Source: a virus
DNA length: 32,071 nucleotides
Strand: one strand, 5' to 3'
IMG/VR virus record: IMGVR_UViG_3300031566_000229
Span: 1 to 32,071 of that record
The translations under genes and the position numbers were made by a program. Shown one piece after another: positions 1,820 through 31,820 of this stretch (its first letter is position 1; the number at the start of each line of letters is the position of its first letter). The notes under the pieces are model-generated. The model did no database searches and was not told the origin of the DNA. It saw nothing but the letters and a program-made list of their open reading frames with translations.

Positions 1820-2959
1820 CTACTCCCCCAAAATCCTGCACGCCAACTCGGGCCGGACGCACTTGACGCCATAGAGTATGTCATAGCTGAAGCGGGTCCG
1901 CTTGTGCTGGCGGGAGACCTCCAGCCGGAGCGCGAGCCCGGAGACCGGGTCGATGGCCGACTGGTAGGTGCCGAGCCCCATCGGGTCGGCGGCGGCGAAC
2001 GGGCGGGACACCAGCGCGAAGGCGTCGCGGTGGAAGTTGAGGTTGACGCGGTAGGTGTCGCTCGCGCCGAGCAGGGTGACGACCTCGGTGGCCGACTTCG
2101 CCGAGGCGAGGTTGGGGGAGACGGTGATCGCGGTGGTCGGCCCGGTCCCGGTGACGGCGCTGGCGACGTACTGCTGCTCGTCGCCCGCGAAGGTGACGAT
2201 GTCGCCCACGAGGATCGAGCCGGTGCCACCGGTCAGGTTGACGACGCCCTGCCCTGCCGCGTTGGTCCCGGTGGTGGTGCCGGTCCCGTTCCACGTTCCG
2301 GCGGTGTGGGACGGGATGTTCTGGTCCATGAACCAGAACGCGCCGAGCTTCTCGCCGATGTCGCCGCGCAGGATGCCGGCCTGATCGCCCCGGAAGCTCG
2401 CGTCCTGAAACGCGCGCAGGGACATCGCTGCGGCCTTGGCCTTCGCGTTGATCGCGACGTAGCGGTTGTCGGGCGGGGCCAGCTGGTTGTTCAGCTTCTC
2501 GTCCGCGTCGAGGAACGGAGCGAGGTCGGTCTGGAACGGGGTGGCGCCCACGGTGCCGACGGCGCTGTAGACCTGCGCGTACAGCGCGAGCAGGTGTCCG
2601 TCCACCTTGTTCGCGAGGGACTTCACGGCCTCGGACGCCTGCATGGGGATCGTGCCCCCGATGACTTCCAGCATCTCCTTGTCGTTGAGGAAGAAGGGCG
2701 CCTCCCACCACTGGTCGAGGGTGATGCTGACCTTCGTCGGCACCACGCCGGCATCGTCGGGAGCGACGTAGCTGGGGGAGACGGCCTGCGCGGTGATCGC
2801 GCTGGGGATGTTGATGTCGATGGTGGACATCTTCTCGCCGGACATGGTCTCGTACGCCCGGTTCACGAAGCGCGGCATCACGGCCATCTGACGGAGAGCC
2901 ATCAGCCCCTGCGCGAGCAGCTGCTGGACGGCTTGAGTCAGAGTGTTGGTGTTCGCCAT
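1820..2959 (-). CDS. Major capsid protein, P22 coat-protein type
   Basis: This 379-residue protein starts at ATG 2959 (MANTNTLTQAVQQLLAQGLM). GGAGG is five bases upstream, and the apparent longer start at 2971 is a TTG that lies across that ribosome site. Features recalling P22-like coat proteins are RFVNRAYETMSGEKMSTIDI near the N-terminus and a domain with DQWWEAPFFLNDKEMLEV. Further features are AVKSLANKVDGHLLALYAQV, a Gly/Thr-rich inserted region (TGTNAAGQGVVNLTGGTGS, a beta-rich I-domain-like part) and a C-terminal DTYRVNLNFHRDAFALVSRP. It would form the HK97-fold icosahedral shell. The scaffold gene lies upstream with one gene between. Assignment rests on order, length and sequence style. 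Confidence 0.82.
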   Translation of the reverse strand: MANTNTLTQAVQQLLAQGLMALRQMAVMPRFVNRAYETMSGEKMSTIDINIPSAITAQAVSPSYVAPDDAGVVPTKVSITLDQWWEAPFFLNDKEMLEVIGGTIPMQASEAVKSLANKVDGHLLALYAQVYSAVGTVGATPFQTDLAPFLDADEKLNNQLAPPDNRYVAINAKAKAAAMSLRAFQDASFRGDQAGILRGDIGEKLGAFWFMDQNIPSHTAGTWNGTGTTTGTNAAGQGVVNLTGGTGSILVGDIVTFAGDEQQYVASAVTGTGPTTAITVSPNLASAKSATEVVTLLGASDTYRVNLNFHRDAFALVSRPFAAADPMGLGTYQSAIDPVSGLALRLEVSRQHKRTRFSYDILYGVKCVRPELACRILGE

Positions 2960-2964
2960 TGCGG

Positions 2965-2969
2965 CCTCC
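2965..2969 (-). promoter_or_regulatory. Ribosome binding site of the coat gene
   Basis: GGAGG on the minus strand lies five bases before ATG 2959 and fixes the coat protein start. It fits a highly translated gene. Confidence 0.7.
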
Positions 2970-2992
2970 AAGAGAAACGGCTAGTTGCTTGG

Positions 2993-6523: not shown

Positions 6524-8065
6524 TTAGCCTTTGGGCGGCTTGGGCGGCTTGCCCGGTCCGGGCGGCTTGCCCGGGGCCGGGTCGGCTTCCGGGTCGGCTT
6601 CCGGGTCGGGCTCGCCCGAGTCCGCCGGGGGCTGTGCGTTGGGACCAAGACCGAACGCCTCTTGCGCCTCCTTGCCCGCCTCCAGATTGGCCTCGCGGTC
6701 GATGTCGATGTCCGACTGCTCCTTCTTGTAGTCCACGCCCTCTCGGGTCCAGCCGCCTTCGCTGAGGATGTTGTAGAAGGTCGGGTAGCTGATCTTCTCG
6801 GCCTGAAGTGCCGCAAGCGCCGCCTGCACCTCTCCGGGACTGGCCTTGATCGCGAAGAACTCCTTATTCAGAATGATCTGGGACTTCACCTTCTCCGGCG
6901 TCGCCTCCGTGCCCATCCACCAGTCGATCCACTGGAGGGTCTTCGATAGCCCCTGCTCCAGAACAGCGGCGATCGTGCGGAGCGTCGCGTGCTCGCCGCT
7001 GTGGCGCATCCCGACGGCGGTCGCTGTCTCGGCGCCGCCCACGTCTTCGAGAAGGCGCGCGCCGAGGGTCGCCATCATCTTCCGCTTCTCCGTGTCGGCG
7101 GTGACGAGGGAGCCGAGTCCGGCGCCGGAGAACTCAAGCATCCCAGCACTGCCGCCTTGATCGAGCATCCACGCGACGCCGGAACCGATCGACAGCTTCT
7201 CGTTCTCCTCGTCGCCCTGAATGGAGCCCGCGATCCACGGCGTCGGGAGGGCCGTGTAGTGCCGACCGTGCTCAAGGTCGGCCATCGTGCGGTAGTGGCT
7301 CAGGTTCACGTCCACCAGATCAATGAGTGGCGGCTTCTCGATGGTGGGCTCGATGGTCGTGGCGGACATGAAGACGAAGGGGAGGAAGCTCAACGGCACC
7401 CCCCGCCGCTTGGGCTTGATCGACTCGGACAGCTCGTAGTCTTCCTTTCCGGGCGGCTTCCGCCAGACCTCCTGAACGTACTGGCCCTTGTCGAGACGCA
7501 GCACGCGGAACCGCTCCTCTCGCTCCGGCACGAACTCGTCCTTCGGGTCTTCGATCTGGTCCTGCTCGCGCAGCACGATGAGGTGGGTCTGCTGGTCGCC
7601 GCCCACGGACCTCGTCCTCCAGCTGTAGATGTCCTCGGCTCGATAGCCGACGACGTAGGGCCGCGACGGGGAGCCCTTCGTTTCCTTCGCCATGTCCACG
7701 AGGATTCCCCAGCGACCAGACGCGAGGACGTTGCGGGTCGTGCGGAGCGCGAACATCTCCGCCGTCACGCCAGACAGGGTGATATCGCGAAGGTACTCCT
7801 CCGCCGCCTTGGACACTTCCCAGCGTGGGGGCTTCTGGAAGATCGAGCCGGCCAGACCCTCCACGGTCCGGCCCGTCGCGTTGTAGTAGAGGGCTCGGAG
7901 CCTGTAGGCGTCGTAGCCTTTCGAGTTTTCTTGATGGCTGTCCAAGGGCGGCAGGTACGCCGGGCCTTCAGCCTTCACGGAATCGCTGCCTTCGTAGCAG
8001 TGCCGGCAGCGGCTCCAGATGTCGATGTACGCCGCGTACTCCGGGCTCGGGGTATTAACCGGCAT
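6524..8065 (-). CDS. Portal protein, DUF4055 type
   Basis: This 513-residue protein starts MPVNTPSPEYAAYIDIWSRC at ATG 8065. The longer start at 8080 is a TTG that falls across the ribosome site GGAGGA. Family-like stretches are YRLRALYYNATGRTVEGLAG, SIFQKPPRWE, GRWGILVDMAKE, the region PFVFMSATTIEP with LIDLVDVNLSHYRTMADLEH, and AATGM-like ETATAVGMRHSGEHATLRTI. The last part is an acidic-then-basic Pro-rich tail (GEPDPEADPEADPAPGKPPG). Portal subunits form the dodecameric ring at the capsid vertex through which DNA passes. The start codon overlaps the previous stop as TAATG. Position ahead of MuF and scaffold genes fits a head module. Confidence 0.85.
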   Translation of the reverse strand: MPVNTPSPEYAAYIDIWSRCRHCYEGSDSVKAEGPAYLPPLDSHQENSKGYDAYRLRALYYNATGRTVEGLAGSIFQKPPRWEVSKAAEEYLRDITLSGVTAEMFALRTTRNVLASGRWGILVDMAKETKGSPSRPYVVGYRAEDIYSWRTRSVGGDQQTHLIVLREQDQIEDPKDEFVPEREERFRVLRLDKGQYVQEVWRKPPGKEDYELSESIKPKRRGVPLSFLPFVFMSATTIEPTIEKPPLIDLVDVNLSHYRTMADLEHGRHYTALPTPWIAGSIQGDEENEKLSIGSGVAWMLDQGGSAGMLEFSGAGLGSLVTADTEKRKMMATLGARLLEDVGGAETATAVGMRHSGEHATLRTIAAVLEQGLSKTLQWIDWWMGTEATPEKVKSQIILNKEFFAIKASPGEVQAALAALQAEKISYPTFYNILSEGGWTREGVDYKKEQSDIDIDREANLEAGKEAQEAFGLGPNAQPPADSGEPDPEADPEADPAPGKPPGPGKPPKPPKG

Positions 8066-8889
8066 TATCTTCTCCTCCAATCGCGACGGGCCACTTGCTG
8101 AATCTCGACCTCGGCGCGGGCCGTCACGGGCTTCGGCTGCGGCAACACCACGGGCTCCGGCTTCGGCTCACTGGCCGGAGACGCATGATCCCAGCCCAGA
8201 ACTGTCGCGTCGGCGACCTCGGGCCGGACGGGTGTGGCCGGCGTCCACGGGACCGTCTGCATCACGGGCGGCGGCGGATCGCGCCGGTACGTCGGCTGGA
8301 CGAAGTCCCTGCTGAGGGTGACCGACCCGTCGTGATGGCTCGCCGCACTTCGAGCCTCGACTACTGGCGCAATCGCCGGGCGTGGCGCTGGCGGCGTGGG
8401 CGCCGGAGGCGGCGGGGGCGCGAAGTCGTCCCGCCGATCCACCGCTCCGTCATGGTGGCTCGCCGCACTTCGAGCCTCGACTACGGGCGCAATCACCGGG
8501 GGAGGCGCTGGCCGGGGCAGCGGAGGAGGTGGCGGCGGAACGTAGTCGCCACGCACGGTCACTCCTCCGTCTTTCGCCCACTCGTCTGGACGCGCTGGGA
8601 CGACGGGCGCGGGCCGGGGCGGCGCGAGCGGGGGCGGAGGCAGCGGCCGACGCGGCGGAACGTAGTCGCCTCGGGCGCTCACCGCCGAGTCCCGGCCCAC
8701 GGCGGCGCCCGCCTTTTGCCAGACGTCATGACGAGACGGCTCTGGCGCTGGGCGGCGCACTGGCGCGTGCGCGGGCGGCGAGAAGTCGCCCGTGCTCGCC
8801 GTTGTCGTTCTCGCGGGCGTAGCGGACTGCGGCTTCGGAAGACGCCGCTGGTCTTCTGCCGTCCACGGAGCCCGATCCTTCTCTGCCAT
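8065..8889 (-). CDS. Proline-rich tandem-repeat protein with RGD motifs
   Basis: This 274-residue protein starts at ATG 8889 (MAEKDRAPWTAEDQRRLPK), with GGAGG six bases upstream overlapping the previous stop; the upstream extension to 9027 lies in the neighbour's frame shadow. It is made of about five diverged units, each with a short polar part, a (R)GD/RD-Tyr/Phe-x-Pro-Pro box and a Pro/Ala-rich stretch. Boxes are GDFSPPAHAP, RGDYVPPRRP, RGDYVPPPPP, RDDFAPPPPP and SRDFVQP. Two units are 40 residues apart with EARSAASHHDG conserved. It is likely extended and disordered. Between fibre and portal genes it may be a virion linker or internal protein. The family is not recognised. Confidence 0.6.
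   Translation of the reverse strand: MAEKDRAPWTAEDQRRLPKPQSATPARTTTASTGDFSPPAHAPVRRPAPEPSRHDVWQKAGAAVGRDSAVSARGDYVPPRRPLPPPPLAPPRPAPVVPARPDEWAKDGGVTVRGDYVPPPPPPLPRPAPPPVIAPVVEARSAASHHDGAVDRRDDFAPPPPPAPTPPAPRPAIAPVVEARSAASHHDGSVTLSRDFVQPTYRRDPPPPVMQTVPWTPATPVRPEVADATVLGWDHASPASEPKPEPVVLPQPKPVTARAEVEIQQVARRDWRRR
8074..8078 (-). promoter_or_regulatory. Ribosome binding site of the portal gene
   Basis: GGAGG on the minus strand lies eight bases before ATG 8065 and inside the 3' end of the upstream gene. Together with the TAATG overlap it supports 8065, not the TTG at 8080, as the start. Confidence 0.6.
8281..8520 (-). repeat. Two tandem 120-base units in the proline-rich gene
   Basis: Bases 8336-8364 and 8456-8484 are identical and exactly 120 bases apart, with flanks still similar. 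The unit codes for 40 residues including APVVEARSAASHHDG, an acidic RDDF/SRDF box and a Pro-rich run. This is a recent duplication compared with the more diverged neighbouring units. Confidence 0.8.
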
Positions 8890-8899
8890 CTCTCTCCTC

Positions 8900-9307
8900 C
8901 TACCTGACCGGCGACACCAGAACCTCAACGACACCGTGACTGAGCACGGCCTCGATCCCGGCGTCGGTGCGCTTGAGGGAGCACACGTAGCGTCCCCCCG
9001 CGAGATTCTCCGTGTCCGTGTCCGCAATGGTCACGATGACCCGTTGCGTGTTCGATGCTCGCACCGAGTCGTAGGCCCCGGTCACCGTGATGCCGCTGCC
9101 GCCGGTCTCCTTCGTCACCACGACGGACCCCTGTGCTCGGTAGGGCTGCTTCGAGGTGAGGCTCTTCCGTAGCGTCCACTCCATCGCGAACGCGGCGACG
9201 TTCTCCATCGCGACCCCGTCTTCCGCGAAGACCTCGTAGCTTAGCGTCTTGTCTTCTCCTGCGAAGAAGTGGTCCGTCGCTTCAATGCTCGATTCGTAAC
9301 TCATCAT
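8900..9307 (-). CDS. Phage protein with BppU-like N-terminal beta domain
   Basis: This 135-residue protein starts MMSYESSIEATDHFFAGEDK and reads as a single beta-sandwich: TLSYEVFAEDGVAMENVAAF, AMEWTLRKSLTSKQP, VVVTKETGGSGITVTG, VIVTIADTDTENLAGGRYVC, SLKRTDAGIEAVLSHG. The DTDTENL-x-x-G-x-Y-x-x-x-L-x-R-x-D-x-G pattern is common in small phage proteins near fibre genes and in the N-terminal domain of baseplate/receptor-binding BppU-like proteins. Its role could be to attach a fibre or close a neck. It begins eight bases after the stop of the giant Ser-repeat gene. Confidence 0.65.
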   Translation of the reverse strand: MMSYESSIEATDHFFAGEDKTLSYEVFAEDGVAMENVAAFAMEWTLRKSLTSKQPYRAQGSVVVTKETGGSGITVTGAYDSVRASNTQRVIVTIADTDTENLAGGRYVCSLKRTDAGIEAVLSHGVVEVLVSPVR

Positions 9308-9315
9308 TCCTCCAA

Positions 9316-12300
9316 CTAAGGGCTCGGGCTCGGGCTCGGGCTCGCCGACGGACTGGCCGAAGGCGACGCGCTCGGCGAATAGGACGCGCTCGTCACGGGG
9401 GTGGCCCTTCCGAGCATCTGCACGGCGGGCTGGGATTGGCCGACGTGCGCGAGGGTCGGGTCATCGAGCTGTCCGAGCATGCCTGTGGTCGTCTGGACGC
9501 GGCCGAGCAGCACCAGCGTCGGGCCGTCGAGCTGCCCAAGCAAGCCGACGGTCGGGCTCAGCTTGCCGAGAAGGTCGATCTCGTCTGGTCGCGGAGGGAA
9601 CGACGGCGAGGCGCTTGGCGAGACGGATGCCGACGAGCTGACCGATGGGGAGATGCTGGGCGATGCGCTGGGCGAGGCGCTGGGCGAGGCGCTGGGGCTG
9701 ACCGAAGGGCTGGCGCTGGGGCTGTACGACGCGCTCTCGCTGACGCTCGGACTGACGCTCGGCGAGGCGCTCGGGGAACGCGACGGGCTGATCGAGGCAG
9801 AGGGCGAAACGCTTGGGCTCGCGCTGGGACTCGCGCTGGGACTGACCGACGGCGAACCAGAGGGGCTGACCGACGGGCTGATGCTCGGAGACAGGCTTGG
9901 CGAGACGCTCGGCGATGCCGATGGCGACACGCTCGCGCTTGGCGACAGCGAGGGCGAGACGGACGGACTGCGGCTCTCGCTGACGCTCGGGCTCGCGCTG
10001 GGGCTGACCGAGGGGGACACCGACGGGCTAGCGGACGGACTCGCGCTCGGACTGACGCTCGCCGAGGGCGAAACCGACGGGCTAGCGGACGGACTGACCG
10101 AGGGCGAAACGCTCGGCGAGGCGCTGGGGCTGGCAGACGGACTTGCCGAGGGCGAGATCGAAGCCGAAGGTGAGACGCTCGGCGAGGCGCTGGGGCTGAC
10201 CGAGGGCGAGACGCTCGGGGAGCCAGACGGGGAGATCGAGGCGGACGCGCTGGGACTCGCCGACGGGCTGATCGACGCCGACTCGCTGACGGACGGGCTT
10301 GCCGACGGGGACTCGCTCGGGCTGGCGCTCGGGGAACCAGACGGACTCGCCGAGGGCGAAACCGACGCCGACGGGCTCGCGGACGGGGTCGCGGACGGGC
10401 TGACCGAGGGCGAGGCGGAGGGCGAACCGCTCGGGGAACCAGACGGGGACTCGCTCGGGCTGACCGAGGGGCTGTAGGACGCGGACTCGCTCGCCGACGG
10501 GCTCGCCGAGGGACTCGCGGAAGGGCTGACCGAGGGGCTTGCGCTCGGCGATACCGACGCGCTCGGGCTGACGCTCGGGCTTGCGCTGGGAGAACCAGAG
10601 GGCGACAGGGACGCGCTCTCGCTGACCGAGGGCGAGGCGGACGGACTGACGGACGGAGACCCGGACGGAGACCGCGAGGGACTGATCGACGCGCTGGGCG
10701 ACGCGCTGGGGCTCTCGCTGCCAGCCGACGGGCTCGCGGACGGGCTGACCGACGGCGAACCAGACGGGCTGGCGCTGGGACTGACCGAAGCGGAAGGCGA
10801 CCTCGACGGGCTGATGCTCGGGCTCGCGGACGGGCTGACCGAGGGGGACAGGCTGGGGCTGGCCGACGGGCTGATCGAGGCGGACGCCGAGACCGATGGC
10901 GAACCGGAAGGGCTAGCCGATGGGCTTGCGGACGGGGAAATCGAGGGGGACGCGCTGGGCGAAACGCTCGCCGACGGCGACACCGAGGGCGACAGCGACG
11001 GGGACTCGCTCGGGCTGACCGACGGACTCGCGGATGGGGAGGCGCTCGGGCTGGCGCTCTCCGAGGGCGACACGCTCGGGCTTGCGGAAGGAGACCCGCT
11101 CGGGGAGACCGAGGGGCTTGCGCTGGGCGAACCAGACGGGCTGATCGAAGCCGACGGGCTGACGGATGGACTCGCGCTCGGGCTCGCGCTCGGCGAGACG
11201 CTGGCGCTGGGCGAAACGGACGGCGAGGCGCTGGGGCTGATGCTCGGGCTGGCCGAAGGCGAAACGCTTGGAGAGAGGCTCGCCGACGGGGACACCGACG
11301 GGGACACCGACGGGGACGCGCTCGGGCTGGCCGACTGACTCGCGGAAGGACTGGCGCTGGGACTGACCGAAGGCGAACCAGACGGGGAGATACTCGCGGA
11401 TGGCGAGACGCTCGGCGATGCGCTCGGGCTCGCCGACGGCGACCTCGACGGGCTGAGCGAGGCGGACGGGGAGGCGCTCGGCGATGCGCTTCCGGGCGAC
11501 GGGCTGGAGGATGGCGAGGCCGAGGGCGAAGCCGATGGGCTGACCGACGGCGAAGCCGAGGGCGATGCGCTGGGGCTGATCGACGCGGACGGGCTGACGC
11601 TCGGGGAACCAGACGGGCTGATCGACGCGCTCGCGCTGGGCGACGCGCTCGGTGAAACGCTGGCGCTGGGAGAGACCGACGGCGACACGCTCGGGCTGGC
11701 GCTCGGAGAGGCGGATGGCGAGATCGAGACCGACGGACTGACCGACGGGCTGACGCTGGGCGACGCGGAGGGGCTGACCGACGGTGAGAGCGACGGGCTG
11801 ACCGAGGGCGATGCGCTGGGGCTCAGGGACGGCGAGGCGCTGGGAGAAGCCGAGGGCGACGCTGAGGGGCTGACCGAAGCCGAGGGGCTGACGCTCGGGC
11901 TGACAGACGGACTGACGGATGGCGAGAGACTGGGGCTGATCGACGCCGACGGCGATGCCGATGGCGACGCGCTGGGAGACAGGCTCGGACTGATGCTCGG
12001 GGAACCAGACGGCGACCGGCTCGGGCTCTCGCTGGGCGATGCACTTGGTGAGATTGACGCGCTTGGCGAGACTGAAGGACTTGCGCTGGGGGACAGGGAC
12101 GGCGACGCCGAGGCCGAAACGGAGGGACTCGCGGAAGGCGACGCGCTTGGCGACGCCGAAGGACTGACCGACGCGGACGGAGAGACAGACGGGCTCGCGC
12201 TCGGACTCAGGCTCGGGCTGACCGAGGGCGACGCGGAGGGCGAGACCGACGCGCTGGGCGAGACGCTCGGGCTGACAGACGGGCTCGCCGAGGGTGAGAC

Positions 12301-15300
12301 GCTCGGCGATGCGGATGGGCTGGGCGATGCGCTCGCGGATGGCGAGACGCTCGGTGAGTAGGACGCGCTCTCGGACGCGCTGGGCGACAGGCTCGGGGAG
12401 GCTGACGGGGACCAGCTTGGGCTGACCGAAGGCGAAACGGAGGCCGAAGCCGAAGGCGAACGGCTGGGGCTGTAGGATGCGCTCTCGCTGACCGATGGGC
12501 TGATTGACGGGCTGATGCTGGGCGACAGGCTCGGACTCGCCGATGGGCTGACCGAGGGCGACGCGGAGGGCGACCGACTCGGGCTGTAGGACGGGCTCTC
12601 GGAGACGCTGGGCGAGACGCTGGGCGAGACCGAGGGTGAGACAGATGGACTTGCGGAAGGCGACGCCGATGGGCTGACCGACGCGCTCGGGCTGACCGAG
12701 GGACTGACGCTCGGGGACGCGCTTGGCGACGCGGACGGGGACGCGGAAGGCGACCGGCTGGGCGAGTAGGACGGGCTCTCGCTGACCGAGGCCGACTCGC
12801 TGGGGCTGACGGACGGGCTCAGGCTCGGGGAAACGCTGGGCGACGCGCTCGGGGAACCAGAGGGCGAGACCGAGGGCGAGATGCTAGCCGAGGGCGAAGC
12901 CGAGGGACTGACACTGGGGCTTGCCGATGGCGACGCGGATGGGCTCGCGCTGGGGCTGACGCTCGCGCTCGGAGAAACAGACGGGCTTGCCGAAGGCGAC
13001 CGGGACGCGCTGACCGAGGGACTGACCGACGGCGAGGCGCTCGGGGAACCAGACGGCGAGACGCTGGGCGAGATGGACGCCGAAGGACTGACCGAGGCCG
13101 ACGCGCTGGGGCTGGCCGACGGTGAGGCGGAGGGCGAGATCGACGCGCTGGGCGACACCGACGGCGAGGCGGACGGGCTGGCGCTGGCCGAGACGCTGCC
13201 CGAAACGCTGGGGCTGACGCTCGGGCTCGCACTGGGGGACCGGCTGGGCGAGTAGGACGCCGACTCGCTGACGCTGGGCGAAACCGACGGGCTGGCGGAC
13301 GGGCTTGCGGACGGGCTGACCGAAGGACTTGCGCTCGGCGACCGGGAGGGCGAGTAGGACGCGCTCTCGCTCGCGGACGGGGACGCGGACGGGCTCGCAG
13401 AAGGCGAGACACTGGGGCTCGCCGAGGGACTGATCGAGGCCGACTCGCTGACCGAGGGGGAGACGCTCGGGCTGACGCTCGGGGATGCGCTCGGCGACGC
13501 TGAGGGACTGATCGACGCCGAAGGCGACACGGACGGGCTCGCACTGGGCGAACCAGAGGGCGAGACGCTCGGGGAGCGCGACGGGCTGATGCTTGCCGAC
13601 GGGCTGACCGAAGGGCTCGCGGAAGGGCTCTCGGACGGGGAGACGCTCGGGCTCGCCGAGGGAGACGCTGAGGGGCTGATACTCGCGCTGGGAGAGACGC
13701 TCGGCGAGACGCTCGGGCTTGCGCTGGGGCTGACCGACGGGCTGGCCGAGGGGCTGATGCTTGCACTCGGGGAGACGGACGGTGACGCCGACGGCGACCG
13801 CGACGGCGAGACAGACGGACTGACCGACGGCGACGCGCTGGGCGAACCAGAGGGACTGACACTCGGCGAGAGCGAGGCGGACGGCGAGACGCTCGGGCTG
13901 ATGCTCGGACTGGCCGACGGTGACGCGGAGGGCGAGACCGACGCGCTGGGGGAGACGCTCGGCGACGCGCTGGGCGAAGCCGAAGGACTGATCGAGGCGC
14001 TGGGAGAGACACTCGGACTCGCGCTCGGCGACGCACTCGGACTCGCGGACGGTGAACCAGACGGGCTGATCGAGGCTGACGGGGACGCTGAGGGACTGAC
14101 CGACGGGCTCGCGCTCGGGCTCGCACTGGGCGATCGGCTGGGCGAGTAGGACGCCGACTCGCTTGCGCTGGGGCTCGCACTCGGGCTCGCCGAGGGACTC
14201 GCGCTCGGCGAACCAGAAGGCGAGATCGACGCGCTTGGGGACACCGACGGGCTGGCGCTGGGACTCGCGCTCGGGCTCGCACTAGGCGACGCGCTCGGCG
14301 ACTTCGACGGGCTGACCGAGGGCGAGATCGAGGCCGACGGCGAGACGCTCGGACTCGCGGACGGGCTGACGCTGGGCGATGCGGAGGGCGACTCCGAGGG
14401 GCTGATGCTGACGCTCGGGCTGACCGACGGGCTCGCGCTGGGGCTTGCGCTCGGAGACGCGGAGGGGCTGACGCTCGGAGACGCGCTCGGCGAACCAGAA
14501 GGCGAGACCGACGGCGAGATCGAGGCGCTGGGCGAGGCCGAGGGACTGATGCTGGGCGATGCGCTCGGGGAGGCACTCGGGCTGATCGACGCCGAAGGCG
14601 AGACACTCGGGCTCGCGGAAGGCGATCGGCTGGGCGAGACGGACGCCGAAGCCGACGGGGACACGCTGGGGCTCGCACTGGGCGAACCAGAGGGGCTGAC
14701 CGAAGGGCTCGCGCTGGGCGACAGCGACGGACTGATGCTCGCCGAAGGACTGACGCTCGGCGATGCGCTCGGCGACGCGGAGGGCGAGATCGAGGCCGAC
14801 GGCGAGACAGAGGGACTGGCGCTGGGCGAAGCACTCGGGCTGACGCTCGCGCTCGGGGACACGCTGGGGCTCGCACTGGGCGAACCAGAGGGCGAGACGC
14901 TCGGGGAGCGCGACGGGCTGATCGACGCGGACGGGCTGACCGAGGGGCTTGCGGACGGGGACCGGGACGGGCTGTACGAGGCCGACTCGCTCGCGCTGGG
15001 CGACGCCGACGGGCTCGCCGACGGGGAGGCGGACGGGCTCGCCGAGGGACTGATCGACGCGCTGGCGCTGACGCTCGGGGAAGCCGAGGGGCTGACGGAC
15101 GGGCTCGCGCTCGGCGAGGCACTCGGCGACACCGACGCGGAAGGCGAAACGGACGGGCTGGCAGATGGCGAACCAGAGGGCGACACCGAAGGCGACACCG
15201 ACGGGCTGGCGCTGGGGCTCGCACTGGGCGATGCGCTCGGGGAGATCGAAACGCTCGGACTGACCGAAGGGCTCGCGCTGGGGCTTGCCGACGGGCTAGC

Positions 15301-18300
15301 CGAGGGCGAGATCGAGGCTGAGGGGCTGACCGAGGGGGACGCTGAGGGGCTCGCGGAGGGCGAAACGCTGGGACTCGCGCTGGGGCTGACCGAGGGCGAG
15401 GCTGAGGGGCTGACGCTCGGCGAGGCAGACGGCGACCGGGAGGGCGAAATCGAGGCCGAGGGCGAGATGCTGGGGCTCGCCGATGGGCTGACAGAAGGAC
15501 TTGCGCTCGGAGACGCGCTCGGAGAGACGCTCGCAGAGGGGCTGACGCTCGGCGAGAAGGACGCGGTGGCCGAAGGCGATGCGCTGGGGCTCCGGCTCGC
15601 GGAGACGCTTGGCGAGGCCGAGGGGGACGCTGACGGGCTGATCGAGACGCTCGGAGAGACGCTCGGGCTCGCTGACGGGCTCTCGGAGGGCGACCGGGAC
15701 GGCGAAATCGACGCCGAGGGCGAAACCGACGGGCTCGCGCTGGGCGAAACCGACGGGCTGGCGGACGCGGAACCAGAAGGCGAGACGCTGGGACTCGCGC
15801 TTGGTGATGCGCTTGGTGAGATTGACGCACTTGGAGAGACTGACGGGCTGGCGCTCGGGGAGGCGCTCGGGCTGGCCGATGGTGAGGCCGAGGGGCTGAT
15901 CGACGCGGACGGGGAGACCGACGGGCTCGCGGAGGCGGAACCAGAAGGACTGACCGAAGGCGACGCGGACCCGGAGGCCGACGGCGACGCGCTCGGGCTC
16001 GCGCTGGGGCTGACTGATGCCGAGGGCGAGACGCTGGGTGACGCCGACGGGCTTGCACTCGGCGAACCAGAGGGCGAGATCGACGCGCTCGGGCTGACCG
16101 AAGGGCTCGCGGAGGGCGACGCGCTCGGGGAGACGCTCGGGCTGGCGCTCGGCGACCGGCTGGCGCTGACACTCGGGCTTGCGGACGGCGATGCGCTCGG
16201 AGAAATCGAAACCGAGGGCGACACGGACGGGCTGACGCTGGGGGAGGCCGACCCGGAGGCGCTTGGGGAACCAGAGGGGCTGACCGAGGGCGACAGGCTC
16301 GCCGACGGGCTGGCGCTCGGAGAGACGCTGGGCGATGCGCTCGGCGACGCGCTCGGGCTCGCCGAAGGACTGGCCGAAGGCGAGATGCTGACCGACGGGC
16401 TGACGCTAGGCGATGCGCTCGGGGACGCGCTGGGCGATGCGGACGGCGACGCCGAAGGACTCGCTGACGGGCTGACCGATGCGCTGGGGCTGACCGAGGG
16501 TGACGCGCTCGGACTCGCGCTCGGGGATGCGGATGGGCTCTCGCTCGGGGACCGGGACGGGCTGTAGGACGCGGACTCGCTCGCGCTTGGAGAAACAGAC
16601 GGACTTGCGCTGGGCGAGACCGAGGGCGAGACCGAGGGCGAGGCACTGGGCGAACCAGAAGGCGACGCGGACGGCGACCGGGACGGCGAGTAGGATGCCG
16701 ACTCGCTGGCCGAAGGGCTGGCGCTGGGCGACGCGCACGGGCTGACGGATGGGCTCGCCGAGGGCGACGCACTCGGGGAGATCGACGCCGATGGCGAAAC
16801 GCTCGGACTTGCGGACGGGCTGACACTCGGACTCGCCGACGGACTCGCCGATGGGCTGGCCGACGGGCTGATCGAGACTGAGGGCGATGCCGACGGGGAC
16901 GCCGAAGGCGACGCGCTGGGCGATGCGCTCGGAGAGGTGCTGCCGGCACCAGTCCACCGCAGGACGACATCGTCAATGTCCTCCGGCGGCGCATCGGACG
17001 GGCTTGCGCTCGCGCTCTCGCTGACGCTCGGAGAAACAGACGGACTCGCGCTGGGCGACGCCGAGGGGCTGATCGACGCCGAGGGACTGACGCTCGGACT
17101 CGCCGAAGGACTCGCCGAGGGGCTGGACGAGGGCGAGGAGCTTGGGCTGACGCTCGGGCTTACCGAAGGACTGATTGACGCGCTCGGGCTGGCGCTGGGC
17201 GAGACGCTCGGGCTCACCGACGGCGACGCGCTGGGGCTGATCGACGCTGAGGGACTCGCGCTCGGGCTGATGCTCGCACTCGGGGAGACTGACGGACTAC
17301 CAGAGGGGCTGACCGACGCCGACGGACTGATCGAGGGAGACGCGCTCGGGCTGACAGAGGGCGAGGCGCTCGGGCTGATCGAGGGCGAAACGCTCGGGCT
17401 CGCCGAAGGACTGACCGAAGGGCTACCCGAGGGGCTGATCGAGACGCTGGGCGAGACCGAGGGGGACGCGCTCGGGGACTCAGACGGGGAGATCGACGCG
17501 CTCGGACTGACGCTGGGCGAAACCGACGGTGACGCCGACGGCGACCGGGACGGGCTGTACGACGCAGACTCGCTGACGCTCGGGGACTCGCTCGGGGAGA
17601 CCGACGGGCTGGCCGAAGGCGAGACGCTGGGCGAAGCCGAAGGGCTGATCGACGGCGACGCTGACGGCGACGCCGACGAGCTGATGCTCGCGCTCGGCGA
17701 GACGGACGGACTGACCGAAGGTGAGACGCTCGGGCTGATCGACGGGCTGATCGACGGCGAGGCGCTCGGCGAGACGGACGGGCTAGCCGAAGGCGAGGCG
17801 CTCGGGCTCGTCGATTCGACAGCGAATGTCCACGGGGCCACGACCTCGGCGTCGGTCGTGTTGACTCCGATGGTCGCCTCTTGGGCGTTTTTGGAGTCCG
17901 CGTTGCGAACGTCGAAGACGAGGCGAAGGCGGTCCCCGGCGGCCCACGTCCCGAGGTTGACACTCGACAGGTTGAACGTCTTGATGCCGGACGTGAGCTG
18001 CTGCTCTGATGTCGAGGAGCTGGTGGACTGGGTGACGCCGAGGGAGTTCACCCGCTCCAGATAGAGCGCGGCGTACAGGAGACTATTGGCGACCGTGACG
18101 TTGAGTTCGACCGAGTAGTCGCCCGTCGTTCCGTCTACTCCGGGGACGCCGACGGGCGCATCGAAGTGGCCGTCCTCCGTCTTTCCCTTCTTGACAGAGA
18201 AGACGACGGTGCCCGCTCCGGCGGTGGACTCGCGGAGGAGCCACTGGCCGATGGCCCCCGGCAAGTCGGACGCTTGATCGCCGAGATAGTAGGTGGTGGG

Positions 18301-18303
18301 CAC
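9316..18303 (-). CDS. Giant 2995-residue serine-alternating repeat fibre-like protein
   Basis: The start is GTG at 18303, sharing one base with the preceding TAG (TAGTG); the product is [20 protein letters not shown]. Residues about 1-165 form a beta-rich domain ([38 protein letters not shown]). Then follow about 2,700 residues in which every second residue is Ser, mostly SPSX with X = A, V, I, G, R, L or E. Cassettes such as [17 protein letters not shown] recur about a dozen times. One short interruption, [17 protein letters not shown], lies near 16940-17000. Near the C-terminus are six [10 protein letters not shown]-like units, then a final [12 protein letters not shown] tail. Tyr, Cys, Lys and Trp are rare. 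No signal peptide or membrane segment is visible. It probably forms a long extended virion appendage or surface coat; the Ser array would suit O-glycosylation. Collapse or expansion of repeats in assembly cannot be excluded. Confidence 0.75.
9398..9585 (-). repeat. Six 10-11 residue LGQLDxPTL-type repeats at the giant protein C-terminus
   Basis: The units read [52 protein letters not shown] and MLGRATPVT. The pattern of hydrophobic-LG-polar-hydrophobic-turn suggests a short beta-helical or trimerisation segment capping the Ser-repeat stalk. Confidence 0.7.
13535..13590 (-). repeat. 56-base exact direct repeat, copy 1
   Basis: This block is identical to 14867-14922, 1,332 bases apart, and diverges on both sides. 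It marks recent segmental duplication inside the Ser-repeat tract. Confidence 0.85.
14867..14922 (-). repeat. 56-base exact direct repeat, copy 2
   Basis: This is the second copy of the block at 13535-13590. The downstream base context differs between copies, which fixes the repeat edge. Confidence 0.85.
16936..17003 (-). other. Non-repeat insert module DDxxLxWTxxGS in the giant protein
   Basis: The insert [17 protein letters not shown] breaks the Ser tract. A related insert, [17 protein letters not shown], occurs in the 1620-residue protein near 22627-22690. Both are flanked by SPSASPS, so the insert looks like a portable short strand module. Confidence 0.6.
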
Positions 18304-23538: not shown

Positions 23539-23967
23539 CTACCCGCACACCTCCACAGCCAGCAACAGCGCGTTGCCCGTGGCCGAGTCGAGCATTGCGT
23601 GTCGCGTGACGCGGATGCGAACCTGATCGCCCGCCGTCATCGAGTCGTCGTTGTTCAGCGCAATGCGGACCTTGCCGAGGTACCCCGCCGTTCCCTTAAC
23701 GGTCGTCAACGCTGCAAGATTCTGTGTATCAAAGCCCTCAACCGCATCGAGATCCGTCGCGTCGGCGTCGGTAATTGCTTCAACCGCCGCCGAGAACTGC
23801 ACCGTGCCACTCGTCGCGGACGCCATGATGTAGTAGAGAACGATGGAGTCGGGAATGGTTGGCTCGGTTGCGATGAAGCTCCAGTCGTATGAGGAATCAA
23901 GCGTGGCCCCAAACGCAACAGCGGGGCGCTGATTGACCGACGTTAGTCCCAAGCGAGTAGCCGCCAC
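23539..23967 (-). CDS. Small beta-rich structural protein, second copy of a tandem pair
   Basis: This 142-residue protein starts with GTG at 23967 (VAATRLGLTSVNQRP), 25 bases inside the preceding relic frame. It aligns along its length with the 159-residue protein at 24116-24595. Shared stretches are ATSGT, AAVEAxTDADAxDLD, GxDTxN, ALxNDDS and GDxVRIxVxR with a DSA...ALL-x-VEV end. The fold is probably a beta-sandwich, and the pairing with LamG/fibre genes suggests a virion surface or fibre-attachment protein. Its TAG stop is directly followed by the ATG of the 1620-residue gene. Confidence 0.65.
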   Translation of the reverse strand: MAATRLGLTSVNQRPAVAFGATLDSSYDWSFIATEPTIPDSIVLYYIMASATSGTVQFSAAVEAITDADATDLDAVEGFDTQNLAALTTVKGTAGYLGKVRIALNNDDSMTAGDQVRIRVTRHAMLDSATGNALLLAVEVCG

Positions 23968-24116
23968 GAAGTGTCTTCATCGTAGATTCCAGCGAGAGAT
24001 TGGGCCGCTCCCGTTCTGGTTGTTCCCGTTGCCCATCCGCACATAGAAAACGACTCTTCGTCTGGCACGTTGGCCGTACGGTCAAGGTGCTCATTGGTGC
24101 CCAAGCGAATCGCCAT
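23943..24116 (-). pseudogene. Truncated LamG-domain gene start (57 codons), relic of tandem duplication
   Basis: ATG 24116 overlaps the preceding TGA (TGATG) and opens MAIRLGTNEHLDRTANVPDE followed by ESFSMCGWATG and SLAGIYDEDTSWRLLAWD, then TAA. It aligns with the first 60 or so residues of the 1620-residue protein ([46 protein letters not shown]). The rest of the LamG domain is absent; the next gene begins inside it. It may still be translated, but it is too short to fold as a LamG domain. Confidence 0.6.
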
Positions 24117-28703: not shown

Positions 28704-28937
28704 CTACCTCAACAGGTTGATGATCCATTGCGTGAGCCACGAGCGCCCCCTCTTCGGACGCTCCTGCGCGTTCTTCTTCTCCTCGACGTTGCTGCACTTC
28801 TGGCAGAATGGCCCTTGGTCGTGTACGAAGATGCGGGGACCAGCTACCGGCACGCCGCAGCGCACGCAGTTGCTCATGTCCGGCGGCTCGGTCGTCTCGG
28901 GCCGCGTCGGCGGCATCGTCTCGTTCGGTCCGGTCAT
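28704..28937 (-). CDS. Small zinc-ribbon-like protein between glycosyltransferase genes
   Basis: This 77-residue protein starts at ATG 28937, overlapping the preceding stop as ATGA; the longer frame to 28997 is a shadow. CVRCGVPVAG and PFCQKCSNVEE give two CxxC pairs about 20 residues apart, typical of one zinc site. A basic linker (KKNAQERPKRGRS) and a short amphipathic end (WLTQWIINLLR) follow. The role is unknown; it may be an adaptor that holds the transferases together or to a membrane. Confidence 0.6.
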   Translation of the reverse strand: MTGPNETMPPTRPETTEPPDMSNCVRCGVPVAGPRIFVHDQGPFCQKCSNVEEKKNAQERPKRGRSWLTQWIINLLR

Positions 28938-29890
28938 GTGGTGGCTCCCTCCCAAGTCTGGACGGCGTCCCAAAACCCCTTCGCGATCGGCTCCCACGCG
29001 AACCGCTCTCTCGCCTCGGCGTACTCCTCGGCCGTGACAGGGCGAGGCCCCTCAGCGAACAGCTCGCGGAGCCACTGCACCATCAGGTCCGTCGTGTCCT
29101 CGGGGATGTACTCGGCGAGGTCGCCGAACCAGTCGCGGTGGTGCTTCCGGTCGAAGAGGATCGGGCGCGCGCCGCACATCAGGCCCTCGGCGGCGCACAT
29201 CTCGAACCCCTCCACGGTACGGAGCCCGGTGACCCACTGGGCTTGGTTGTAGAGCGCAACCAGCTCCTCGTCGGTGACGTTCGTTCGCCACTCGACACGG
29301 TTCGCCCGGGCGGGGCCTTCAAGGCGGAACGGCCCGAGGTGGATCATGCGGCCGTTCTCGCGGCGCACGGCCCGATGGATCTGCGTCAGGCTGTCCCGCT
29401 CCGGGTTGTCGCCCTCGGCGAACGCGAGATAGTGGCGGACCCCGCTCGGCGCGCTCGGGGCGAACGCCGGGTCCACGCCGAGAGGCGAGCGGTAGAAGGT
29501 CACCCCGTCGGGGTCGTGACCGTCCTCGCGCACCATGCTTTCGAGATCGTAGTAGCTCCACACGAACGCGGCGCCGCGCCAGAGGTCGAGCCAGTCTGCG
29601 GTGTCGGGGTGCTGCGTGCCGCGAATGACCAGCTGGAGCACGGCGTAGGGGATGCCCGCGTCGTTCAGCCGCCTCACGCGATTCATCACCTGTGTCCAGC
29701 GTCCACCGACATGAAGAAGGACGAGGTCGGACCGGCGCTCGGCCTCGGTCACCTCGAACTGGTAGCCCACCGTGCCAGCCGGAACGATCTCGACGTTCGG
29801 CGGCGCGTTCTGCGGCGCGTTCTGCGCCAGCGCACGCTCGATGCGGCGCGACGAGTGGCACGGGTGGCACGACTCAAGCAGGATTCGCAT
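28934..29890 (-). CDS. GT-B glycosyltransferase, GT4-like
   Basis: This 318-residue protein starts MRILLESCHPCHSSRRIERA at ATG 29890, overlapping the previous gene by 17 bases. SPLGVDPAFAPSAP corresponds to the GT4 linker motif PxGVDxxxFxP, and VEGFEMCAAEGLMCGARPIL carries the E-x7-E pair (Glu227, Glu235) of retaining GT-B enzymes. The N-terminal acceptor half is shorter than usual (family members are often 350-400 residues). It would transfer a sugar from a nucleotide donor to a glycan or protein, probably in the host cytoplasm. Neighbours support a glycan-building operon. The acceptor is unknown. Confidence 0.8.
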   Translation of the reverse strand: MRILLESCHPCHSSRRIERALAQNAPQNAPPNVEIVPAGTVGYQFEVTEAERRSDLVLLHVGGRWTQVMNRVRRLNDAGIPYAVLQLVIRGTQHPDTADWLDLWRGAAFVWSYYDLESMVREDGHDPDGVTFYRSPLGVDPAFAPSAPSGVRHYLAFAEGDNPERDSLTQIHRAVRRENGRMIHLGPFRLEGPARANRVEWRTNVTDEELVALYNQAQWVTGLRTVEGFEMCAAEGLMCGARPILFDRKHHRDWFGDLAEYIPEDTTDLMVQWLRELFAEGPRPVTAEEYAEARERFAWEPIAKGFWDAVQTWEGATT

Positions 29891-30542: not shown

Positions 30543-30727
30543 CACTCGTCCTCGACCAAGAACCGCCCGCATCGACTGTTCCCGCACATCGCGCCCAGAA
30601 TCGACTTGAGGTCGTAGGCATCGACCCGGAAGCACATGAGGGTGCCGCACAGGGGGCACGCGTCGGAGCGAGTCACGGTGCCGCTCGTCGCGAGTCGGAC
30701 GTAGTCGTTCGTGGCGTTCGTCGTCAT
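30539..30727 (-). CDS. Tiny zinc-ribbon-like protein
   Basis: This 62-residue protein starts MTTNATNDYVRLATSGTVTR at ATG 30727 (ATGA overlap with the epimerase stop). CPLCGTLMC and MCGNSRCGRF form a Cys4-type zinc ribbon. It ends GTGA into the next transferase. Function is unknown. The zinc motif and cassette position match the 77- and 87-residue neighbours. Confidence 0.65.
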   Translation of the reverse strand: MTTNATNDYVRLATSGTVTRSDACPLCGTLMCFRVDAYDLKSILGAMCGNSRCGRFLVEDEW

Positions 30728-31560
30728 GGCTTGCCTCCGTACTGGGAGCGATACCAGTCCACGGTGTCCTCAAGGTCCGAGAGTCGGAACTCGGGGCACC
30801 AGCCGAGGAACTGCCACCCGTCGCCTCGGGCGATCAGCTTGGTCGGGCGCTCGCCGCGACGCATCGGGCGGAAGTCGAACAGGGGCTCGACTCCCACGAT
30901 CTCCGCGATCATCCGGGCCACGTCCAGCACGGAGAACGCAACACCGGTCCCGCCGTCGAACACCGTGTCGTCTCCGTACTCGATCGCGTCCACCAGCATC
31001 CGAGCGAGGTCGCTGTGGTGGATCAGGTCCACCGTCTGGTGCCCGTTGCCCCAGATCGGGACAGGCTCGCCCCGGAGCAGCGCGACCGCGAAGGTCGGGA
31101 CGATCTTCTGCGGGTGCCCGGCGCCATGCTTCTGCCCCGGCCCGAACGCGTTGAAGGCACGGACGTGCGACACGGGGATTTCGTAGGCTTGATGGTAGGC
31201 GGAGGCCAGCCGTGTCGCGGCCATCTTCGTCGCCGTGTAGACGGACGGGAAGACCTGCGGCATCGTGATCCCGACGTACCGAGTCCGGGACTCGCGGCAG
31301 GCGTCCAGCACGTTCACGGTGCCCTTGATGTTCGTGTCGATCGCGAGGTCTACCGTGTCGAACAGCTCGTGCGTTCCGAGCACACCAGCCATGTGGATGA
31401 CGGCGTAGGCTTCGGACGCGTAGTCCATCACCTGCTTGCGGTTGCGGATGTCGAACTCGGGGCGGTCGAACCGGTCCGCCGTGAATCCGCGCTCCGTCAG
31501 CGCCGCGCACACCTCGGCGCCGAGGAACCCGTTGCCGCCCGTGACCACGACCCTGTTCAT
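30724..31560 (-). CDS. NAD-dependent sugar epimerase/dehydratase (extended SDR)
   Basis: This 278-residue protein starts MNRVVVTGGNGFLGAEVCAA at ATG 31560, overlapping the upstream stop as ATGA. The Rossmann motif TGGNGFLG is at residues 7-14, HMAG at 56-59 and the catalytic YTATK (Y108, K112) follows PQVFPSV. RAFNAFGPGQ, IWGNGHQTVDLIHHSDLARM and a C-terminal substrate-binding part match nucleotide-sugar epimerases/dehydratases of the GalE/RfbB class. It would convert an NDP-sugar, supplying a donor for the transferases next to it. The exact product sugar cannot be read from the sequence. It is slightly short for the family (about 300-330). Confidence 0.85.
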   Translation of the reverse strand: MNRVVVTGGNGFLGAEVCAALTERGFTADRFDRPEFDIRNRKQVMDYASEAYAVIHMAGVLGTHELFDTVDLAIDTNIKGTVNVLDACRESRTRYVGITMPQVFPSVYTATKMAATRLASAYHQAYEIPVSHVRAFNAFGPGQKHGAGHPQKIVPTFAVALLRGEPVPIWGNGHQTVDLIHHSDLARMLVDAIEYGDDTVFDGGTGVAFSVLDVARMIAEIVGVEPLFDFRPMRRGERPTKLIARGDGWQFLGWCPEFRLSDLEDTVDWYRSQYGGKP

Positions 31561-31820
31561 CGCGGCCCCCACGTCTGCCCCACGTACTCGCATCGAATCC
31601 CGCCGCAGAGCGGGCAGCTGTCGCCGTCCCAGCACCGGAGAGGCTTGGTCTGGTCGTCGCTGAACTGGCCGCAGTCCGCGCACCAGTAGGTCGCGACCTT
31701 CGGGTCGGGCGGGTAGCTGTTCGGCCGGAAGTGCCGAATCGGGTTGAAGATCAGGCCGGTCTCTGCGCTCAGCAGCCGAGCCGTCTCGTCCGGCCCATTC
31801 GCGGCGTCAGGGTTCCTCAT
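31557..31820 (-). CDS. Small zinc-ribbon-like protein
   Basis: This 87-residue protein starts MRNPDAANGPDETARLLSAE at ATG 31820, with an ATGA overlap to the methyltransferase stop. YWCADCGQFSDDQ and SCPLCGGIRCEY give two Cys clusters separated by about 18 residues (C-x2-C ... C-x2-C). It is a likely single-zinc protein. No known role; one of three such genes in the glycan operon. Confidence 0.6.
   Translation of the reverse strand: MRNPDAANGPDETARLLSAETGLIFNPIRHFRPNSYPPDPKVATYWCADCGQFSDDQTKPLRCWDGDSCPLCGGIRCEYVGQTWGPR

Follow-up and report, generated by a model that had tools for sequence, protein, structure and literature searches.

A GT27-like glycosyltransferase accompanies long Ser-dipeptide tracts in environmental phages

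Long Ser-dipeptide tracts and a glycosyltransferase resembling the enzymes that start mucin O-glycosylation are paired reciprocally, and on the same strand, across many unrelated environmental phages. Both are encoded in the window analyzed here, the whole 32,071-nucleotide stretch of virus DNA (Table 1), where the tract fills most of gene P1 and the enzyme lies in the same gene cluster. The computed evidence consists of the sequence pattern of the tract, the fold and metal site of the enzyme, and this linkage. The recurrence of the pair in phages and bacteria makes a sugar-coated, mucin-like stalk the likeliest reading of the repeat, and it is probable that the phage encodes an O-glycosylation system that decorates long Ser-Pro virion stalks, with the tract as a mucin-like glycoprotein backbone.

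Table 1. Features of the window, in order of position
Feature	Position	Strand	Remarks
Major capsid protein	1820..2971	-	P22 coat-like, phrog_283
Portal protein	6524..8080	-	phrog_145, DUF4055; downstream, head module marker
Gene P1, 2995 aa	9316..18303	-	GTG-start ORF; residues 1-163 all-beta N-terminal domain, 164-2902 Ser-dipeptide tract, 2903-2971 non-repeat, 2972-2995 short terminal Ser tract
P1 main Ser-dipeptide tract, 2739 aa	9598..17814	-	residues 164-2902; S-P-S-[A/V/I/L/G], period 4 residues
Only long interruption of P1 tract	16942..16992	-	residues 438-454, non-Ser
P1 N-terminal domain	17815..18303	-	jelly-roll-like beta sandwich (predicted); also in L023, L186, L259, before other stalks or Ser tracts
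103-aa gene coupled to P1	18303..18614	-	homologs directly before P1-type gene in L023, L259; one in L261
Gene P2, 1620 aa	18676..23538	-	N-terminal beta domain, two related beta domains, C-terminal domain
P2 Ser-dipeptide tracts	19045-20565, 21259-21726, 22408-22827	-	link the P2 domains
Gene P3, 642 aa	24950..26878	-	short Ser-dipeptide stretch 25322-25453; begins 3 bases past glycosyltransferase gene end
Two-domain glycosyltransferase, 603 aa	26882..28693	-	residues 1-306 ppGalNAc-T (GT27)-like; 361-600 second domain (GTdom2)
Probable further glycosyltransferase	28934..29890	-	weak match, phrog_2170 glycosyltransferase; no Pfam match
Neighboring gene	29874-30773		no Pfam match
NAD-dependent sugar epimerase/dehydratase	30724..31683	-	relatives in several other tract contigs

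The P1 tract and its gene neighborhood

A sequence-only reading of this DNA had described a Ser-dipeptide tract of about 8.2 kb with a 6- and 12-base coding period and synonymous codon variation. The tract is real and belongs to a single minus-strand gene, P1, whose GTG start codon overlaps the stop codon of the preceding gene. Ser alternates almost perfectly with other residues (1362 of the 2739 residues are Ser, followed by 598 Pro, 358 Ala, and 208 Val), with a few single-residue register breaks and one long interruption of 17 residues; a similar 12-residue segment breaks P2, and VDDVVLEW and VDDVILAW occur in locus L189. At 50% Ser and 22% Pro, this is a long Ser/Thr/Pro-rich repeat domain of the kind that characterizes mucin-like glycoproteins, in keeping with the long, uniform, stalk-like region proposed earlier. 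Autocorrelation of the tract DNA is strongest at 12 bases (0.50), followed by 24 (0.47) and 18 (0.42), and is 0.37 at 6 bases and 0.22–0.34 at most other lags, and that of the protein is higher at lag 4 (0.73) than at lag 2 (0.50). The Ser codons are a mixture of 773 TCN and 589 AGY, and codon identity at lags of 2–100 residues equals the random expectation (both ∼0.30), so that the codons are fully randomized and synonymous sites are saturated. The Ser alternation is held by selection while its synonymous codons are saturated. Codon anti-repetition, in which scrambling would be selected against recombination, was considered and set aside, as the effect is weak and not significant (352 identical consecutive Ser codons versus 376 expected).

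P1 lies within the virion structural module, on the same strand as and upstream of the portal, head morphogenesis, scaffold, and capsid genes. Its predicted N-terminal fold (the first structure model was made from a 4-sequence alignment, and the other four models are of lower confidence) is also present in proteins of uncultured Caudovirales that have collagen repeats, pectin lyase, or S74 fiber-type/chaperone domains. The LamG-like N-terminus of P2 had no match in a direct IMG/VR search, and a profile search of the fetched loci matched it in L038 (where a relative is a stand-alone gene), L189, and L195-L198. From this gene neighborhood and these domain resemblances, P1, P2, and P3 are probably virion proteins. 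P1 ends in SPSPSP, with no LPXTG anchor, and a simple hydropathy test detected a signal-like N-terminus or C-terminal membrane segment in 0 of 66 viral and 0 of 24 cellular tract proteins, which would fit glycosylation in the cytoplasm followed by virion assembly.

The GT27-like enzyme and its linkage to Ser tracts

In eukaryotes, the polypeptide GalNAc transferases (ppGalNAc-Ts, CAZy family GT27) start mucin O-glycosylation. The first domain of the phage glycosyltransferase closely resembles them and is, judging from its profile, modeled fold, and metal site, a likely relative, with an overall identity of ∼20%. When a 12-sequence profile of the domain was compared with PDB sequences, the first 14 matches were ppGalNAc-Ts (best E 1e-15); the top 49 Foldseek matches of an AlphaFold2 model (pLDDT 84.5) were likewise ppGalNAc-Ts, and VIA Z was 23.9–27.6 over 29 ppGalNAc-T entries versus at most 20.3 for any other. 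By all three measures this GT-A catalytic domain is nearest to the solved ppGalNAc-Ts. Residues D83, H85, and H248 align with the ppGalNAc-T motifs LDxHC and GHxFR and so supply the Asp-x-His and second His that are the Mn2+ ligands of GT27; they are kept in 153/153, 149/153, and 150/150 aligned viral copies, respectively, and are near-invariant in cellular copies as well. A C-terminal ricin-type lectin domain, which is usual but not universal in GT27, is missing, and residues 361-600 of the predicted model form a second alpha/beta domain (GTdom2) with no beta trefoil, for which a sequence search of the PDB returned nothing. NCBIfam gave only sub-threshold GT2 matches for the enzyme. In tblastn searches of 50,697 INPHARED phage records, no match was found for the glycosyltransferase domain, and no INPHARED phage has the enzyme at E 1e-5; P1 and P2 had no match there either, in a search where BLAST low-complexity filtering hides the tracts themselves. 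The sequence-only reading had passed over this glycosyltransferase of the mucin-initiating type, the main clue, which lies in the same gene cluster outside the tract that it described.

When IMG/VR was queried with the enzyme alone, at least 581 GT27-like loci were found. Counting Ser-dipeptide runs of at least 50 aa, a tract is present near the enzyme at 62 of 80 viral loci (53 of 68 after dereplication) and at 21 of the 22 dereplicated loci of 20 kb or more. No tract was found at 15 control loci around other phage GT2 genes (Fisher p 9e-9) or at 22 capsid-relative and other loci (p 9e-12). Tract and enzyme have the same strand at all 61 loci where both were called, with a median gap of 286 bases.

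The linkage also holds in the other direction. A protein search with a repeated cassette of the tract (see below) hit only one locus because of the low-complexity filter, so a degenerate DNA pattern was used instead. GT2 genes are carried by 13 of 17 tract contigs, with GT27-like members among them in every case, and the four without the enzyme are fragments shorter than 14 kb. GT2 genes are present in 8 of 41 control contigs, two of which carry mixed S/T tracts; Thr-Pro (TATP) tracts caught by the same DNA pattern, which served as controls, are mostly without GT2 genes. GTdom2 tracks the tracts too, being near 12 tract contigs versus 0 matches in 122 control loci (1.07 Mb). The portal family of the window was found in none of the 19 other tract contigs examined, and the linkage is therefore not confined to one phage lineage. 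In the window the enzyme abuts P3 and is several genes away from P1; its closest relative (L163) has no tract in the sequence present, which covers only 3.6 kb upstream of the enzyme. The pair is found in some tiny bacteria as well (Patescibacteria loci). A prophage origin was considered for these, and terminase profile matches in 4 of 13 genomes, a weak test, suggest that most are not recognizable prophages.

A GT27-like fold is by itself no proof that the acceptor is a peptide; it is the linkage to Ser tracts that suggests a Ser/Thr-peptide acceptor, and the linked enzyme that suggests dense O-glycosylation of the repeat. Phages commonly have clusters of glycosyltransferase genes beside variable structural genes, which counts against such a modification, and the tract could instead be an unmodified, entropic, disordered linker between beta domains, with the nearby glycosyltransferases acting elsewhere, on host envelope sugars or phage DNA. 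Ser/Pro linkers of low complexity are frequent, a minority of the control contigs have GT2 genes too, and relatives of this phage carry other repeats in this position (ATVSGQ-type in L038, and LTPA-type in L023, where they form the stalk of a P1 relative), so that some stalk, of whatever chemistry, may be required. However, it is to the GT27-like family specifically that the tracts are linked, on the same strand at all loci where both were called, and a generic linker should not require a Ser pattern as strict as this one, which is register-perfect over saturated synonymous sites. An unmodified spacer is thus unlikely.

The Tyr cassette and the integrity of the tract

The earlier reading had also singled out a 17-residue cassette, returning about a dozen times and present in another gene, as a possible functional node for folding, cleavage, or binding in an otherwise uniform stalk. 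The copy number was borne out, with 6 exact copies in P1 (12 allowing small changes) and 2 in P2; a wider motif gives 13 and 3, respectively. All 13 Tyr residues of the tract are inside the cassette as claimed, but most Arg are not (10 of 25 inside, 15 outside). Among 16 cassettes compared, the peptides are on average 87% identical and the DNA only 66%. The equal identities that would have refuted the earlier claim are thus not seen, and the peptide is indeed more conserved than the DNA, although this is true of the whole tract and not special to the cassette. The DNA is slightly more alike than random synonymous codons would make it (60% expected), which could speak for a node but equally fits recent internal duplication. 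Since the cassettes are irregularly spaced (intervals of 34 to 628 residues), hold under half of the Arg, and have few counterparts in other phages' Ser tracts (SxSY motifs occur as one copy each in three contigs, among the tract contigs listed), they are not read as functional nodes, and such a role seems very improbable.

Repeats are well known to cause assembly errors, and this record is a contig from a metagenome. There is nevertheless hardly any chance that the tract was inflated by short-read mis-assembly across the repeat or by recent slippage, as exact repeats in the window reach 56 bases at most, with no 61-mer occurring twice (so that collapse or expansion during short-read assembly is not expected), short-lag codon identity carries no duplication signal, and similar tracts are present in dozens of other contigs and a Woesebacteria chromosome.

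A predicted glycosylated stalk and its known counterparts

In the favored reading, that of a glycosylated stalk, three structural proteins (P1, P2, and P3) would consist of beta-rich domains joined by Ser-Pro-Ser-X linkers, P1 being the extreme case. The first domain of the phage glycosyltransferase would place the first sugar on tract serines in the cytoplasm, and GTdom2 and the neighboring sugar genes may prepare or extend the glycan. Dense glycosylation could then turn the tract into a bottlebrush, stiff and extended, which would serve to display or space domains on the virion. The broader proposal has about an even chance of being right: that prokaryotic viruses have true mucin-type O-glycosylation, in which a GT27-like peptide:sugar transferase, with a second transferase fused to it, is devoted to giant Ser-dipeptide stalks, is widespread in uncultivated tailed phages, and has been exchanged with Patescibacteria.

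If this is correct, many environmental phages carry mucin-like glycoproteins made by their own enzyme, which would bear on phage adhesion to cells, mucus, and particles and on self-shielding, and would assign a function to a large set of proteins that are rich in Ser and have no family match here. Mucin-type initiation would no longer be a eukaryotic speciality, and the question arises whether the eukaryotic system has relatives in prokaryotes or viruses. The enzyme would also be a candidate tool, soluble and genetically portable, with which bacteria could be made to produce dense O-glycosylated repeats. In the literature covered, which takes in a minority of subscription journals and no bioRxiv preprints, no description was found of GT27-like enzymes from phages or bacteria that are linked to Ser tracts.

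The closest parallel is that of mucins and GT27 enzymes in animals and Toxoplasma. As in the phage system, a low-complexity backbone rich in Ser and Pro is accompanied there by an enzyme of the GT27 type, with the D-x-H metal motif and third His, and these enzymes are the best structural matches by a clear margin. The phage system differs in being prokaryotic, with no secretory pathway, in having a second glycosyltransferase-like domain in place of the lectin domain, and in its strictly Ser-alternating tract with little Thr. The serine-rich repeat glycoproteins (SRRPs) of Gram-positive bacteria have long Ser-rich repeats that are O-glycosylated by glycosyltransferases of the same cluster (PMC6973325), an arrangement like that of the phage, where the modification is predicted. 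Priming there is by a GtfA/GtfB complex with DUF1975, whereas the nearest solved relatives of the phage candidate are ppGalNAc-Ts, and SRRPs use accessory Sec (SecA2/SecY2) export and an LPXTG anchor, unlike the phage tract proteins with no signal-like N-terminus or membrane anchor. In mycobacteriophages Che8, Corndog, and Myrna, virion proteins are reported to be modified by glycosyltransferases that the phages themselves encode (PMC12363180, citing Freeman et al. 2023), but the targets given in the available excerpts of that account are capsid and tail-tube proteins, and those excerpts mention neither a giant Ser-dipeptide stalk nor a GT27-like enzyme. Finally, phage fiber-type proteins with collagen-like or other repeat stalks share the P1 N-terminal fold, and P1 differs from them in that its stalk is a Ser-dipeptide repeat tied to a dedicated glycosyltransferase.

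The Ser-dipeptide genes and their surroundings

The window is a tailed phage fragment (a complete IMG/VR record of 32,071 bases) in which the minus strand carries sugar genes, then structural genes including the three Ser-dipeptide genes P3, P2 and P1, and then the portal, head morphogenesis, scaffold and capsid protein genes. In the P1 tract, Ser lies at almost every second position, Pro at every fourth and A, V, I, L or G in the intervening places, and the pattern is broken by one 17-residue segment; the Ser-dipeptide runs of P1, P2 and P3 together contain 1796 Ser residues. The Ser pattern of the P1 tract greatly exceeds chance expectation, and no DNA repeat underlies it. TCN and AGY Ser codons, which cannot be interconverted by a single substitution without leaving Ser, are used there to a similar extent, and synonymous codon agreement at lags of 2–100 residues is no higher than in random draws; the Ser register is nonetheless retained, and thus selection holds the peptide pattern on DNA that is saturated. 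No exact repeat in the window reaches 61 bases, so short-read assembly across the tract is credible. The long antisense ORF across the tract is probably no gene but a reflection of how the repeat is composed.

Features of the window and repeats at the corresponding position in related phages
Feature	Position	Strand	Remarks
Portal gene		minus	phrog_145/DUF4055
Capsid protein gene		minus	P22-type; end of the gene order
Pro-rich protein gene	8065–9027		just before the portal gene
P1	9316–18303	minus	2995 aa
P1 Ser-dipeptide tract	9598–17814	minus	residues 164–2902
Antisense ORF	14405–16567	plus	720 aa
P2	18676–23538	minus	five Ser-dipeptide runs separating beta-rich domains
Adjoining paralogues	23539–23967, 24116–24595		one family
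P3	24950–26878	minus	one short Ser-dipeptide run
Glycosyltransferase gene	26882–28693		two domains
Repeat in L038	2133–3824		ATVSGQAALTT-type
Repeat in L023	8828–10678		LTPAxxxLxAVALDPxPG-type

The sequence-only reading had a longer, 17-residue cassette in the tract returning about a dozen times and present in another gene, and we find 12–13 copies in P1 and 2–3 in P2. It also held the peptide to be more conserved than the DNA; among cassettes, peptide identity is indeed 87% and DNA identity 66%, compared with 60% for random synonymous codons. That reading placed Tyr and most Arg mainly inside the cassette; all Tyr of the P1 tract do lie there, but only 10 of 25 Arg. The suggestion that the cassette is a functional node is weak given this Arg distribution, its irregular spacing in P1 and its near absence from other tract contigs; the sequence observation itself stands.

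In L002/L036, comparison loci whose capsid protein is 96% identical to that of the window, the last protein in the contig part upstream of the portal is another one, of non-Ser type. L038, with a portal 55% identical to that of the window, retains the neighbours of P2; its P2 N-terminal domain is a stand-alone protein, followed by a gene for a different regular repeat. L023 has the P1 N-terminal domain, at 43% identity, at the head of an LTPA-type repeat. Stalks are exchanged at this position, as they are in surface-exposed proteins.

Two related beta-rich domains of P2 (residues 378–604 and 761–991) have relatives in none of the fetched loci. The C-terminal domains of P2 and P3 are alike (P3: WGEETPDAGEESKPWTYW), and domains of this kind also terminate Ser-tract genes in L161, L147, L189 and L213. 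Members of the family of the adjoining paralogues lie next to Ser-tract or relative loci in L038, L189, L195–L198 and L237. The Pro-rich protein contains repeated blocks RGDYVPPP and VVEARSAASHHDG; L036 encodes a relative, and the protein matches no family.

Linkage of Ser tracts and the glycosyltransferase

Ser tracts are linked to a two-domain glycosyltransferase, whose gene in the window ends 3 bases ahead of the P3 start. A degenerate DNA pattern gave 102 stretches, and 17 contigs were accepted as true Ser-dipeptide contigs (L118 and L123 appear to be near-copies; L040 was obtained by a separate protein search with the cassette). GT2 genes are present in 13 of the 17, versus 8 of 41 contigs that matched the same pattern but have no pure Ser tract (one-sided p 7e-5); the four tract contigs without them are all <14 kb, and one of these, L040, has the second domain of the enzyme. 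All 13 GT2-bearing tract contigs have GT27-like members. In 122 control loci (1.07 Mb) there were two GT27 hits, both weak, and none for the second domain; this direction of search is partly circular since both profiles were trained on tract loci.

The search from the enzyme side did not use the Ser tract and gave at least 581 loci, of which the best 80 were taken. Tracts of at least 50 aa are present in 57, 61 or 62 of these 80 (non-overlapping ORFs, start-to-stop ORFs and stop-to-stop frames, respectively), and after dereplication in 53 of 68, or in 21 of 22 when loci of at least 20 kb are counted. Because the query alignment (A2) was drawn from tract contigs, the relatives closest to it may over-represent the pairing. 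Tract and enzyme lie on the same strand in 61 of 61 cases, with a median gap of 286 bases. No tract occurs in any of the 15 loci surrounding two other phage GT2 genes or of the 22 in the capsid-relative set. Mixed Ser/Thr tracts in L048 and L093/L161 (SVTPSATP, SATPSATP) are also accompanied by GT27-like genes, which suggests that Thr is tolerated.

The pairing is not confined to one phage lineage: the 19 other tract contigs searched all lack the portal family of the window, although the control genomes lack it too. At E 1e-5 the enzyme was found in no isolated phage of INPHARED. Among GTDB genomes it occurs at 52 loci, nearly all in Patescibacteria, and at 24 of the loci a Ser tract of 50 aa or more is present; one example, on a Woesebacteria chromosome, adjoins genes that we take, from reading their sequences, to be tatC- and comM-like. 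On a tree of 120 sequences, 10 viral/cellular label changes are required, at least five of them on well supported branches. In the many Patescibacteria genomes with the enzyme (L243–L294), Ser tracts are frequent companions, the tract proteins likewise have no signal peptides, and most of the genomes show no terminase near the enzyme locus.

The enzyme and possible glycosylation of the tract

Pfam finds only a GT2 domain in the enzyme. In a direct PDB sequence search the 14 best of 16 matches are ppGalNAc-Ts (counting 8uhv, Toxoplasma GalNAc-T3), and a 12-homologue profile of the GT27-like domain matches ppGalNAc-Ts to E 1e-15. The top 49 Foldseek matches of its AlphaFold2 model (mean pLDDT 84.5) are ppGalNAc-Ts, and upon VIA re-alignment of the model 29 ppGalNAc-T entries have Z values of 23.9–27.6, the first other entry having 20.3. 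The metal-binding residues (Asp, His and His) hardly vary among viral and cellular copies. In sequence and predicted fold, then, the enzyme resembles the GT27 family. A Cys-rich insert in this domain (residues ~123–148, CEDPACDW...CGKCGG), conserved in several homologues, may be a zinc-binding element for a substrate or partner. The second domain (residues 361–600) has no relative in Pfam or by PDB sequence search; it is a recurrent partner, encoded either by a separate gene or in a fusion, depending on the contig (a fused gene is present at 63 of the best 80 among at least 581 viral loci).

ppGalNAc-Ts favour Pro close to the acceptor, and the GT27-like domain would put the first sugar on Ser in an S-P-S-X context; the glycan would then be extended or supplied by the second domain together with the sugar genes nearby. 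Neither a signal-like N-terminus nor a C-terminal membrane segment is present in any of the tract proteins tested, so the modification would take place in the cytoplasm, as the virion is assembled or earlier. A densely glycosylated tract would be stiffer and would presumably lie on the virion; mucins measure ~0.25 nm per residue, and at that value the 2739 residues would reach several hundred nanometres, many capsid diameters. The P1 N-terminal domain may be the attachment or display end, because its fold resembles domains of phage fibre-type proteins with collagen repeats.

The GT27 ppGalNAc-Ts usually have a lectin domain, whereas the window enzyme has none; because of this, and because its activity is predicted, we do not file it as a GT27 member, but on present evidence the putative transferase works like one.
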